This document shows positions 21,401 through 47,148 of a DNA stretch of 64,000 bases, in pieces. Both the position numbers and the translations under genes were made by a program. Each line of letters opens with the position of its first letter. Within the stretch, counting starts at the first letter, position 1. The notes under the pieces were generated by a model. That model ran no database searches and was not told the origin of the DNA. It worked only from the letters and a program-made list of their open reading frames with translations. Origin of the DNA: Phoenix dactylifera (taxonomy: Eukaryota > Streptophyta > Magnoliopsida > Arecales > Arecaceae); NCBI RefSeq assembly GCF_009389715.1, contig NC_052409.1, positions 1,528,001 through 1,592,000 on the forward strand, written 5' to 3'.

Positions 21401-22358
21401 TTTTAATTTTTTTTCAAAAAATTCTCTAGCATCTCCATGTCTTTCTCCTAAGATTCATTCTAAATTACAGATATCCTCACTAGCCAAATTGACCCCACAT
21501 CTCAAATTTGCGACAACGGTCACTAATATATTATCACCAATTTGGTTGCTTGATGGCTGCTATACGCAGATTATTTCCACCATTAAAGTTATTAGTTAAA
21601 TTCATCAGTTCAAACAGAAATTCTCAGTAAACTGCTTCTATAAGATGTCATTACACATAGCTCAAGCAATGAACAAGGCATCTGACAACAGTTTTGGAGT
21701 ATCAACCAACTAAAACATAATATTGCAAAAACAAAAAAGTGCACAAATACGAACGAAAACACTTCTTACAGCATATGACAGAGTGAGCTGCAAAAGTCAA
21801 ACAAGAGATTCGCCAACCACACTGCATAAAAGTAGCAACCCTGCAGATAAGCTTCTTCTTGCCAGATAGAATCTTTAAGCATAAAATAAATAAGCAGTGT
21901 AGGTATATGCTGTAGTACTGGAAGCAAGGGAATCATGTTTGCAATAATTCAATATACTTTGGGGACAAAGGCTTGAAACCCAGATAGATGCAATCACTCC
22001 TCCTTCAAGGATACAGAAACAGGTGTATATTTTTCCCAATAGGCCAAAATCAAATGAAAAAGGAAAAAGAACCGCAGTAAAAAAAAAATCTAGGGTTTCA
22101 CTTGGTCCCACTAGGGCAAGGATTGCCTACCTTGTAGGAGGGTACGGAAGACGAAGACGAAATCCCCAACCATGCCCAGTGTCCCGCCATGGCCGGATTT
22201 AATCTGATAAACCAAGAAATCGAGGGGGGACCCGAAACAAATTAGAAGGGCGTGGAGAGGAAGAGCCGAAATCCCCAACCATAGGTAGAAAAAAAACGAA
22301 GGGCATTGAAAGACGTGGAGAGGAAGACGCCCGCCAGGATAGCAATCGGAAATTGGGG
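18456..22358. other. Intergenic stretch, nothing recognised
   Basis: No gene family was recognised. Around 20000-20150 there is a stretch rich in AGCTCGACTCAAGCTCG-type motifs, a common degenerate plant repeat. The last few hundred bases lie downstream of the minus-strand U6 gene. Confidence 0.45.
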
Positions 22359-42900: not shown

Positions 42901-45900
42901 TCATGGTGACATGAGCTTCGGACCATTATCAGGCATTCCCATTCCGGCAGCGAGCTCAGCATCTAGCTGAGTGTGTGGAGCAGGTCCCATCATTTGCTTC
43001 ACCCTGCAACAACATGAGTCGGATTGTAATGTAGTTTTGAAAACCCAACCATGCTGAAATTTTCAGGTTGCTAGAAACATGAAAGACTCGTAATTGAATG
43101 CGAAGAGAACTTTCATGAAACTAACATGCATTTTAACAACAAAATTCTGTTAATTAATACAACACACCTTTCTGCCCATGCAGGCAGTCAATCAGAGCAA
43201 CAAACAATTAAAGCAAACACAGGAAACCAAGATGAAAGGAAAACATAAATATTATGACAACCAAAGTTCTGATAGATTTCAGAAAATGAGAAACGAGAAA
43301 AGTCCATCCATCATACATCCAGGGGTAGCAATCCATGACCTGACCAGCCAGCAGACATGCTACCGGCCCACCATAAACATGTTCGAGTTTGTACTAAGCA
43401 TATTCCGATGCTAAACAGGTCGACCTGTTTTACCCGTTTTGTTAAAAGGGTCTGGTTCGGGTTAAGAGTCCTACCCTCCCATTTGATAACTAAGTTGATC
43501 AAACCCTGGCTCATTGGTTCAACACCTGACCCATTCGGTATTTAAGAGAAGATGGTCTGGGCCAGCCCGTAGTTCGGCATTTAGGAGAAGATGGTCTGGG
43601 ACGGCACCTTAAATGGATAGAGCAACTAACAACAATTACATAATTCATCCCTATTAAAAAATTGATGCACGAGCTAACCATAGAGATACCAAAAAAAATT
43701 AACCACCTACATTCTTGAGTTATAAATGTTGCTACCATATCCCACCAACCTGATTTACAATAAATAAGACAACAGCAATGAGCCAATACAAGGTGATAGA
43801 GTAAGAATGAAATACGAAGTGATAAATCTTAGATTTAACTCCCATGGTTGTGCTAGACATACTCAAAAGTGTCTTCCTTTATTTACAGAGGACCTTTCCT
43901 TGCTATTCAAAGATAAGGTGGCAACCTAGGTTACTGGAGTTTATAAAGACTATGATAACTCAGGCTTCTCACTGCTAAGTAATATGTGGCTATCATACCT
44001 TTGCTAAAAAAGATCCATTTCAGGTATCTGTTCCCTCACGCCTCTAGAAGAAGCTCTCCTGAAAGACATCAAGGCTCACAAGTGAGGCTGTAGAGGATGA
44101 GGCATATGTATCGGAATGACGTTCATGAGAAACGCACACCTTGCAACACAAATTACCTTCATATGGGAGGCATGCATGTTATGCTTTCATTATACGTAAG
44201 AAAAGAAGAAAAAATCATTTTCCTTCTCTAATAACATTGTTGTGTGCAAACTCAGAATTCTAAACCTGCATATAGTATGATATGTTATCATATAATAACC
44301 ATCAAAAGCACATCTAACATTGCATTGTGATCTCTCTATCTTAATCTCAATCTCCATCTCTGTGCATGTGTGAACTTTGTGAATTTGTCCTAAAGTCTGT
44401 AATCAAGCAAAACAACTTCGATCCTCCAGCCTACTCCTTTGACATGACTTTCTTAGATTTCTATTCATTCAAGAAAAAACACAAAGCTAACACCTCACCT
44501 CATTTTGAGTCTAGAATTCTCTCTTACACCTCAACCTTCTTAAACACCAAATCAAATCATTAAAGAAATTTTGAGACTTAAATAACCTATCTAGAAGCTT
44601 CCCAAAAATCAATTGTAACGTAAGCACTCCTACTCAAAGTGAAAGGAGTTGAATATAAATACTCCAGCATCTACCAAGAAAACAAAATTTTCTACAGGAC
44701 CAAACCAATATTTCCACTTTAGATGGTATGGTCGTGTACGACAAACAATGAGAAGCCTTACATGAAACAAGTTACCCGAAACTTTGAAAAAGAGAATAAA
44801 AAATCATTCCATCCGAGGTAACACTTAAATAGGAAAAATTGATGAAGGAAGATTTTTAAAGCAAATTCTGACTAGCTGAGACATCACAGTGATGGATTAC
44901 AACACCTACATGCTTGTAACATATACATGTCAACTTGTTTCTTTTGGAAAGTTACTCTCCTACAAACACATTATAGAAGATTAAATTTTCTTTAAAAAAT
45001 TAGCTGAGCATGTTATGAATTATCATTCTATGCTTAAACAAGAAACAGTTTTTGTTTGCGGTTTGCAGAACAAGAGGGAGCCTTTTCTCTTTTGCATGTG
45101 TGTGGTGTGTGTGTTCTACTCAACATATTGCAGAAATGTTCACCTATCAAGTTATGTTGGCATTAAATTATGATACAAATGACAAGTTTGGAAACCTAAT
45201 AATCTAACTGCAGTGCCAGGAGCTTGACTTTTTTATTTCCATATTCATAGATACTATGCTGCATAATCCTAATAAAGATACATATAGCATGGGTGAATAA
45301 AGATTGATGGATTTCTGAAAACACATTCACCAAGGAGAATCTTGATAAGTTGCTTAACCAAAACAAGCATATCTAACCATTTAGGCCATCTACATGCAAC
45401 GCTTATATCTCCCGGTGTCACGAACTTTTTCCTCTCTTGTCACCAAAATATTCCATGTTAGACTATCTCATTCCACCATCCATGCCATCACATTGTAAAA
45501 AGGTTACTCTACATCCCTAAGTTTGCATTGCTCCCAAGATACAGCACCTAACAATTTCTGCGGTCTCACTGACCCACTGCAGTGCTGCCGACATTCCTAA
45601 AACTCATGGATTCAACATTAACTAAGTCACCATGCGATACCTGGTCCTCAAAGAGCTAGTGATTGCTGCTACCGACAAAGTCGGCCATAACCTCTAGGTA
45701 GCAAGGAAGCAAATTTCCAACCCAATAATTTGTGCCACTCCTCCAAATCATTGAGTCCTTTTGATGTCAATTATACCATCCGTGGAAGGAGTTTACTCGT
45801 CGATCATGATCTTGTGCATGAAACTCCTATATAAGGGAAGAAGTACACCCAAGTACAAACTTAAGCTGGAAAAGGAATTCATATAGTGAAGCGAGCCATT

Positions 45901-46828
45901 ATAGTGAGCAATTATAACTAGCAGCCAAGAAGAAAGAAGCTAGGTGGCAGATAAATTAGAAGAGGCTAGGTTCTTGGTACAGTAGGATCATCGGCATTAT
46001 TGACCAGATTCCATCAAAATCTAATAAGCATAGGAAGCTAACACATGTTTCAGCAAGGTTCCTAGCAATAACAATTTTAAATAATTCAAAGCTCACCATC
46101 GAAAAGATGGAAAAAATCATGCCCGAGCGAATCTATTTATAATTTAAATAGCAAGAAAAGATTGGAAGCATCTTGATGAGTTTAAAAATACAGACAGAAC
46201 CGATCACCCACTGCAATGCAACCAATATAAACTCATTTATAAGTGATATCAACGCCGAGAGCAAAAACGTTAGAGAAAAAGGAACGGGACCGAATAAATT
46301 ACCGTTTCTTGTGGCGCTTTGACCGGAAATGCTCATCTCTCACATCCTTATTAGCAAAATATCGACTAAAACGATAAAAATTAAAACTTTGTAAGGATCT
46401 CATCACGAAAACAAAAAAAAGGAGGCGTTGTGGGGTTGTTATATATGGGGAGAGATTGAGAGTGATAAATACTCGCAGTGGAGGCAATAGAATTGGCCCA
46501 TCCCGGGGAGGTCTTCATCCAGCGGCTGGGGCTTCGCCTCTGCCCCCTCCGCTAGCTTCAAAAGCTCGCCGTACACCATATCATCACGTGATCATCAATC
46601 TTTTTAGGTTAAAGAAATCGAATGAAGATAGAATCGAAGAATCAAATTAAAACGCAACAAAATAACTTCTAGCCCCAAAAAAAAGAACAGAGAGAGATGG
46701 GATGGAAGAAAATAAGAAGAACAGGAAGAGATGAGGAGGATATCTTTGAGGAGGAATTTGGAGCGGCGATCCGTCTTATGCGAGAATCTCCGCTTCTTCA
46801 CCCTTCTATGCGGACACTTCCCTCCCAT
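42901..46828 (-). CDS. BUD20/ZNF593-type C2H2 zinc-finger protein (pre-60S ribosome factor)
   Basis: Four exons on the minus strand: 46828-46744, 46587-46473, 46365-46303 and 43003-42901, giving exactly 122 codons (121 aa). The start MGGKCPHRRVKKRRFSHKTD is the conserved family start, so it is preferred over the in-frame ATG at 46861. The middle reads GDDMVYGELLKLAEG and DEDLPGMGQFYC. The single zinc finger is CLHC-X12-H-X5-H (residues about 63-85), followed by HFRSKRHKKRVKQMMGP and DAELAAGMGMPDNGPKLMSP. In yeast and human, BUD20/ZNF593 joins the pre-60S particle and helps its nuclear export. The same role in plants is inferred. Intron 1 starts ATATCCTC and ends CAC, a U12-type AT-AC intron. 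Intron 3 is 3.3 kb, long for so small a gene. The promoter side has a telo-box and TGGGCY motifs. Confidence 0.93.
43004..46302 (-). other. 3.3-kb intron 3 of the BUD20-like gene
   Basis: GT-AG intron between the zinc-finger exon and the C-terminal exon. It contains a short tandem repeat at about 43534-43608 (two 36-bp units around AGAAGATGGTCTGGG) and no recognisable gene. A FRWYGRVRQ-like reading near 44716 weakly recalls a LINE end but is not enough to call. Confidence 0.75.
46588..46743 (-). other. U12-type AT-AC intron
   Basis: The 156-nt intron begins ATATCCTC (U12 consensus RTATCCTT, one mismatch) and ends CAC. The branch-site-like TTCTTTAAC at about 46616-46608 (consensus TTCCTTAAC) places the branch A about 21 nt from the intron end. 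These borders join ...KFLLK-G to GDDMVYG, the conserved protein sequence, in the right phase. No GT-AG alternative gives that join. Confidence 0.88.
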
Positions 46829-46885
46829 CTCTCTTCTCTTCGAGCTAGCGGCCGGCGGCAACGAGAGGTTCTTGCTCGCAGCGTC

Positions 46886-47148
46886 GGAACCCTAGCCTCG
46901 TGATATTATGACTTATGAGCAAGGCTTCAGATTCGGCTTGTCCGCGTAGCAAATACTTATGCGGGATCCAGATCTGCCGTCCGCCTTGCGCGCTGGAAGG
47001 CGATCTGATCCGTCCGTGCTTGGGTTCTTAGGAATGGGCTGGGAATGCTTTATTATTATTATTATCCTCAAAAGCCTGATTTGGACCGAATCATTTTTAA
47101 AAGCCCAATTAAATTTGACGGGCCTACTGGAAGCCCGGGGAGGCCCAA
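46886..47148 (-). promoter_or_regulatory. Telo-box and site II motifs upstream of the BUD20-like gene
   Basis: AACCCTAG at 46888-46895 is a telo-box. TGGGCY (site II) motifs lie at 47035-47040 (plus strand) and, on the minus strand, at about 47102-47107 and 47141-47147. Telo-box plus site II is the known promoter signature of plant ribosomal-protein and ribosome-biogenesis genes, which agrees with the gene's identity. Confidence 0.65.

Follow-up and report, generated by a model that had tools for sequence, protein, structure and literature searches.

A probable U12-type AT-AC first intron in a date palm BUD20/ZNF593 gene and in its duplicate

We analysed a window of 64,000 nt of Phoenix dactylifera DNA (by the window we mean this whole stretch), which carries on its minus strand a gene of the BUD20/ZNF593 family, encoding a putative pre-60S factor. 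Judging from its sequence, the first of the three coding introns of this gene is a functional intron of the U12 type with AT-AC ends, a reading to which we assign a probability of about 0.95. An earlier sequence-only reading had placed the intron in the U12 class and the AT-AC subtype, and this assignment, as well as the boundaries, the branch site and the gene family that went with it, stands on the basis of the spliced translation, the splicing motifs, matches among PDB sequences and a second gene copy elsewhere in the genome.

Gene model and encoded protein

Joining base 46744 to base 46587 and removing two further introns, both GT-AG, yielded in the spliced translation an intact Bud20/ZNF593 protein of 121 aa. 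Its ATG is at 46828 on the minus strand, and the last base of its stop codon is 42901. The parts of the gene are as follows, with the evidence for each given in brackets:

46744..46828, minus strand: coding exon 1, MGGKCPHRRVKKRRFSHKTDRRSKFLLK and the first base of the Gly codon (spliced translation; same exon in the duplicate)
46588..46743, minus strand: intron 1, probable U12-type AT-AC, 156 nt, phase 1 (spliced translation, motif match, duplicate)
46473..46587, minus strand: coding exon 2, GDDMVYG...FYCLHC (spliced translation, PDB match)
46366..46472, minus strand: intron 2, GT-AG, 107 nt (spliced translation)
46303..46365, minus strand: coding exon 3, second half of the zinc finger, RYFANKDVRDEHFRSKRHKKR (spliced translation, Pfam)
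43004..46302, minus strand: intron 3, GT-AG, 3299 nt (spliced translation)
42901..43003, minus strand: coding exon 4, VKQMMGPAPHTQLDAELAAGMGMPDNGPKLMSP and the stop codon (spliced translation)

Against the PDB sequence set, the 121-aa protein matched yeast Bud20 with an E value of 7e-15 and human ZNF593 with one of 7.3e-14, and it contains one zinc finger of the C2H2, jaz type (zf-C2H2_jaz) above the Pfam cut-off; a Pfam scan of two long ORFs nearby gave no match. The PDB alignments have their starts at query residues 17 to 43, and those with the yeast protein have a gap of four residues near the joint of exons 1 and 2. They thus back the family assignment but not the precise joint, and as evidence for the latter they were discarded. 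What the protein shares with Arabidopsis BUD20 (AT2G36930), yeast Bud20 and human ZNF593 is the likeness of a Bud20/ZNF593-type protein with a single C2H2 finger, the alignment covering the yeast and human proteins only. By inference from yeast Bud20 and Arabidopsis BUD20, the palm protein may serve as a pre-60S export factor. In PMC12332008, AT2G36930 is named BUD20 and its localisation was followed, together with that of RPL24C and NOG1-1, to monitor the maturation of pre-60S particles.

A second copy of the gene in the palm genome

The DNA of the palm's own genome (773,078,369 bases in 2391 contigs) was searched with the gene, and the best candidates were scored. Eight places were recovered, namely the gene itself, a duplicate on contig C17 and six 39-nt matches to a repeat. 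The duplicate, which runs from C17:9656109 onward, has four exons and an intact frame of 121 aa; it is identical to the window copy at 113 of the 121 residues and at 341 of the 366 coding nucleotides. The divergence amounts to a dN of 0.029 and a dS of 0.24-0.25, with 8 of 54 four-fold sites changed. The resulting dN/dS of about 0.12 suggests constraint on the protein ever since the duplication, and a broken splice would be hard to reconcile with this. Our guess is that the pair goes back to a whole-genome duplication. No retrocopy with joined exons was seen among the best candidates of this search, and a protein search of viral and genome contig collections gave no relative (2 and 24 pattern stretches, respectively, 0 confirmed). 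Conservation was therefore compared with the within-genome duplicate, in place of monocot and dicot orthologues.

The first intron of the duplicate is 169 nt long, interrupts the same codon and has kept the AT-AC ends. Its 5' splice site ATATCCTCCTC is identical at 11 of 11 positions, the block around the branch site, TTCGATTTCTTTAACCTAAAAAGAT, at 25 of 25, and the terminal GATGATCAC is conserved as well, whereas the middle of the intron has diverged between the copies by several indels and substitutions.

Upstream of the intron, about 47 nt of the 5' leader, including the start codon (window 46868-46822, minus strand), recur in an interspersed repeat. The repeat occupies at least six other places in the genome, with 95-97% identity over 39 nt and unrelated flanks. 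Since the duplicate on C17 carries a diverged version of this leader, it was probably the repeat that captured the leader from the gene.

Boundaries and signature of intron 1

On the minus strand, the context of intron 1 reads ...CTCAAAG / ATATCCTCCTC ... GATTTCTTTAACCTAAAAAGATTGATGATCAC / GTGATGATATGG. The intron opens with ATATCCTC and closes with TCAC, the last stretch before exon 2 being GATGATCAC, and it interrupts in phase 1 the Gly codon of K-G-DDMVYG. Three elements can be placed within it:

46733..46743, minus strand: 5' splice site ATATCCTCCTC, 11/11 the same in the duplicate (motif match, duplicate)
46608..46616, minus strand: candidate U12 branch-site element TTCTTTAAC, inside a 25-nt block that the duplicate shares unchanged (motif match, U12 pairing, duplicate)
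46588..46591, minus strand: 3' splice site TCAC (spliced translation, duplicate)

The opening ATATCCTC has no mismatch to ATATCCTY and agrees with ATATCCTT at seven of the eight positions from +1 to +8, the sole mismatch being the C at +8. The branch element TTCTTTAAC has one mismatch to TTCCTTRAY (8/9), and its branch A (46609) lies 21 nt from the end of the intron. When checked against the sequence, the coordinates, the AT-AC ends and the distance of about 21 nt to the branch site, as first proposed, proved exact.

To judge these motifs we defined a trio, consisting of ATATCCTY, a branch element with at most one mismatch and YAC 8-25 nt further on. At least one such trio was present in 14 of 40 Markov-simulated windows, with a mean of about 0.4 per window, and motif statistics were for this reason discarded as the sole proof. 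In shuffled versions of intron 1, a branch element (at most one mismatch, 8-25 nt) appeared in 251 of 5000 cases, and ATATCCTY occurs nine times in the window when both strands are counted. What lifts the case above chance is that ATATCCTY stands exactly at the in-frame exon joint and is kept in the duplicate. By motif alone, a second trio was noticed on the plus strand at window positions 21471-21565 (ATATCCTC / TTGCTTGAT / AC), where about 0.4 per window is the level given by chance.

Introns with AT-AC or AT-AT ends could also be excised by the major (U2) spliceosome rather than the minor one. U2-type AT-AC introns do exist in plants, at 0 to 0.05% in the four plants of Table 2 in PMC7367187; the spacings between branch A and acceptor in the two copies (21 and 36 nt) are long for a U12 intron, and the whole of intron 1 is 71% pyrimidine. 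However, both ATATCCTC and TTCTTTAAC match the U12 signature and are located where the intron is best conserved in the duplicate, and the 21 nt past the branch A (CCTAAAAAGATTGATGATCAC), up to the AC end, hold only 9 pyrimidines, without a tract. Excision by the major spliceosome is thus scarcely credible to us, and we retain the U12-type reading.

Reading frame at the exon joint

According to the sequence-only reading, no intron other than this AT-AC one brings KFLLK and GDDMVYG together in phase; the KFLLK-GDDMVYG segment is, we assume, conserved among plants. We enumerated the introns of at least 50 nt with the ends GT-AG, GC-AG, AT-AC, AT-AG, AT-AA or AT-AT that leave the frame open and free of stops, the donor ranging from a point 30 nt past the ATG to one 60 nt short of the end of exon 2 and the acceptor reaching to 20 nt before that end. 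The window copy gave 129 such pairs, and the 12 that retain both KFLLK and DDMVYG all start with AT (4 AT-AC and 8 AT-AT). KGDDMVYG is produced by a single pair among the 129, namely 46743/46588. The AT-AT pair 46741/46583, shorter by one codon, gives KDDMVYG, and the remaining ten add or alter residues. The claim is thus nearly right: the exact joint KGDDMVYG has this one source, and KFLLK and DDMVYG are kept by 12 different AT pairs.

The same enumeration in the duplicate gave 39 pairs, including 11 GC-AG pairs and no GT-AG pair. Four of the 39 retain NFLLK and DDVVYG (2 AT-AC and 2 AT-AT); the AT-AC pair at the matching place gives KGDDVVYG, and the other AT-AC pair, which opens with ATCCTCCT, gives KDDVVYG.

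These counts also bear on the possibility that a GT-AG or GC-AG intron at another place in the stretch joins the exons, the AT-AC motifs being accidental. Such pairs do leave the frame open in the window copy (11 GT-AG and 6 GC-AG), and in both copies it stays open with several of the GC-AG pairs and also with some AT-AG and AT-AT pairs. Yet none of the 17 preserves both KFLLK and DDMVYG, and the GC-AG and AT-AG pairs open in both copies lose part or all of KFLLK-GDDMVYG. The duplicate, which lacks an in-frame GT-AG pair, keeps the AT-AC motifs, and none of its 11 GC-AG pairs preserves the matching segments. We therefore consider a GT-AG or GC-AG joint very unlikely and the AT-AC joint 46743/46588 the preferred one.

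If intron 1 were retained, translation would pass through an open stretch and then meet a stop within the intron (stop-to-stop ORF 46604-46891), so that the minor spliceosome should be required for making the full-length protein. Our inference that the gene depends on minor splicing is strengthened by the fact that both copies found by the DNA search carry the intron. A pre-60S assembly factor would in this way be tied to the minor spliceosome of its own genome through both of the gene copies found. For annotation this is a warning, as a gene model restricted to GT-AG introns would harm the N-terminal part of the protein.

Minor-spliceosome RNAs and their pairing with intron 1

In the mechanism that we propose, the U11 snRNP would recognise ATATCCTC, the U12 snRNA would pair with TTCTTTAAC leaving the branch A bulged, and U11 would then be replaced by U6atac. 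Joining of AAAG to GTGATGAT would create K-GDDMVYG.

Of the four minor-class snRNAs, the three that were searched for are present in the palm's own genome above the Rfam cut-offs: U12 (94.6 bits), U11 (78.7 bits) and U6atac (best 97.1 bits, at least six matches). The 40-46 best first-look candidates were scored, and the snRNA counts are lower bounds. The upstream region of the U12 locus contains TCCCATATCGG and TATAAA, and that of the U11 locus TCCCACATCGG and TATAAG, elements which we take to resemble the plant snRNA promoter. The two best U6atac copies contain AAAGGAGAGA. U6atac is represented by two strong copies (95-97 bits) and at least four weaker ones (35-59 bits); the four U6atac-like copies in this lower range are perhaps pseudogenes.

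The branch element TTCTTTAAC pairs with GTAAGGAA of the palm's own U12 RNA gene at all 8 scored positions, with a G-U pair at one of them; the mismatch to TTCCTTRAY converts a C-G pair with the U12 RNA into U-G. Among the 127,982 nine-mers that the two strands of the window contain, 33 reach as high a score for U12 pairing. By this computation TTCTTTAAC is a TCCTTAAC-like branch element able to pair with the U12 RNA. For the 5' splice site, the C at +8 weakens the computed U11 pairing, which was -4.4 kcal/mol in comparison to -6.5 for ATATCCTTTTT, the 5' part of U11 being assumed to be AAAAGGGTCGG.

Comparison with known plant U12-type introns

Intron 1 resembles the plant U12-type AT-AC introns (intronIC/IAOD, U12DB, ERISdb) in its ATATCCTY start, its TTCYTTAAC-like branch element and its YAC end, and also in having no pyrimidine tract between branch and acceptor and in being the first coding intron. 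It differs from them in the C at +8 and in the spacing of 21 nt (36 nt in the duplicate) instead of 10-20 nt. According to Table 2 of PMC7367187, AT-AC introns make up 26% of the U12-type introns in Arabidopsis, 23% in soybean, 22% in rice and 13% in maize. The statement in the sequence-only reading that they are a small minority even among U12 introns was thus overstated for plants, at least for these four. PMC10639083 reports that minor-intron densities are similar in nearly all land plants studied and that minor introns have a significant 5' bias in 112 of 290 Streptophyta. Intron 1 is very probably a real and ordinary U12 AT-AC member, its subtype being in the minority without being a rarity. 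The literature passages searched contained no statement on the intron class of AT2G36930 or ZNF593, and a term search of the main text of PMC4892727, on Arabidopsis U11-48K, found no At2g gene named.

Distance between branch site and acceptor

The branch A is separated from the acceptor by 21 nt in the window copy and by 36 nt in the duplicate, the latter because of a 15-nt GAT-rich difference. The usual distance in U12 introns is given as 10-20 nt with an optimum of 11-13 (PMC8199999, PMC3584512), a range that the window copy narrowly misses. Published scans, as described in PMC2846911 and PMC7367187, accept branch sites as far from the acceptor as -40 or -55, so that spacings of 21 and 36 nt are not excluded by practice. 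The minor spliceosome may here tolerate a long spacing, or one copy may have shifted its branch point or be spliced poorly, so that the output of the copies differs; we put this forward tentatively and with some doubt. Should poor splicing or a shifted branch point be true, the output of the two copies would differ through minor splicing alone. With an identical 5' splice site and an identical branch element placed 21 and 36 nt from the acceptor, the copies form a natural test of spacing and a ready-made small experiment on how the minor spliceosome chooses its acceptor. The unusual spacing of the duplicate is the only lead obtained here that we find worth a test at the bench.

Through the 15-nt GAT-rich difference, the branch site of the duplicate might also have moved to TTCGATGAT, in which case the copies would use different branch sites. 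With two mismatches to TTCCTTRAY, this sequence sits 13 nt away from the duplicate's acceptor, within the optimum of 11-13 nt. However, TTCTTTAAC is unchanged in both copies (25/25 block) and has the top U12-pairing score in both, whereas TTCGATGAT is absent from the five best U12-pairing sites listed; we consider such a move improbable and TTCTTTAAC the likelier branch element of both copies.

A hairpin that would shorten the distance between branch and acceptor was considered and rejected, because neither copy gave a better fold than shuffled sequences (z 0.61 and 0.46). By eye, we also noticed in both copies an AG that ends 9 nt past the branch A and that would lead to a stop if used as the acceptor (AAA GAT TGA).
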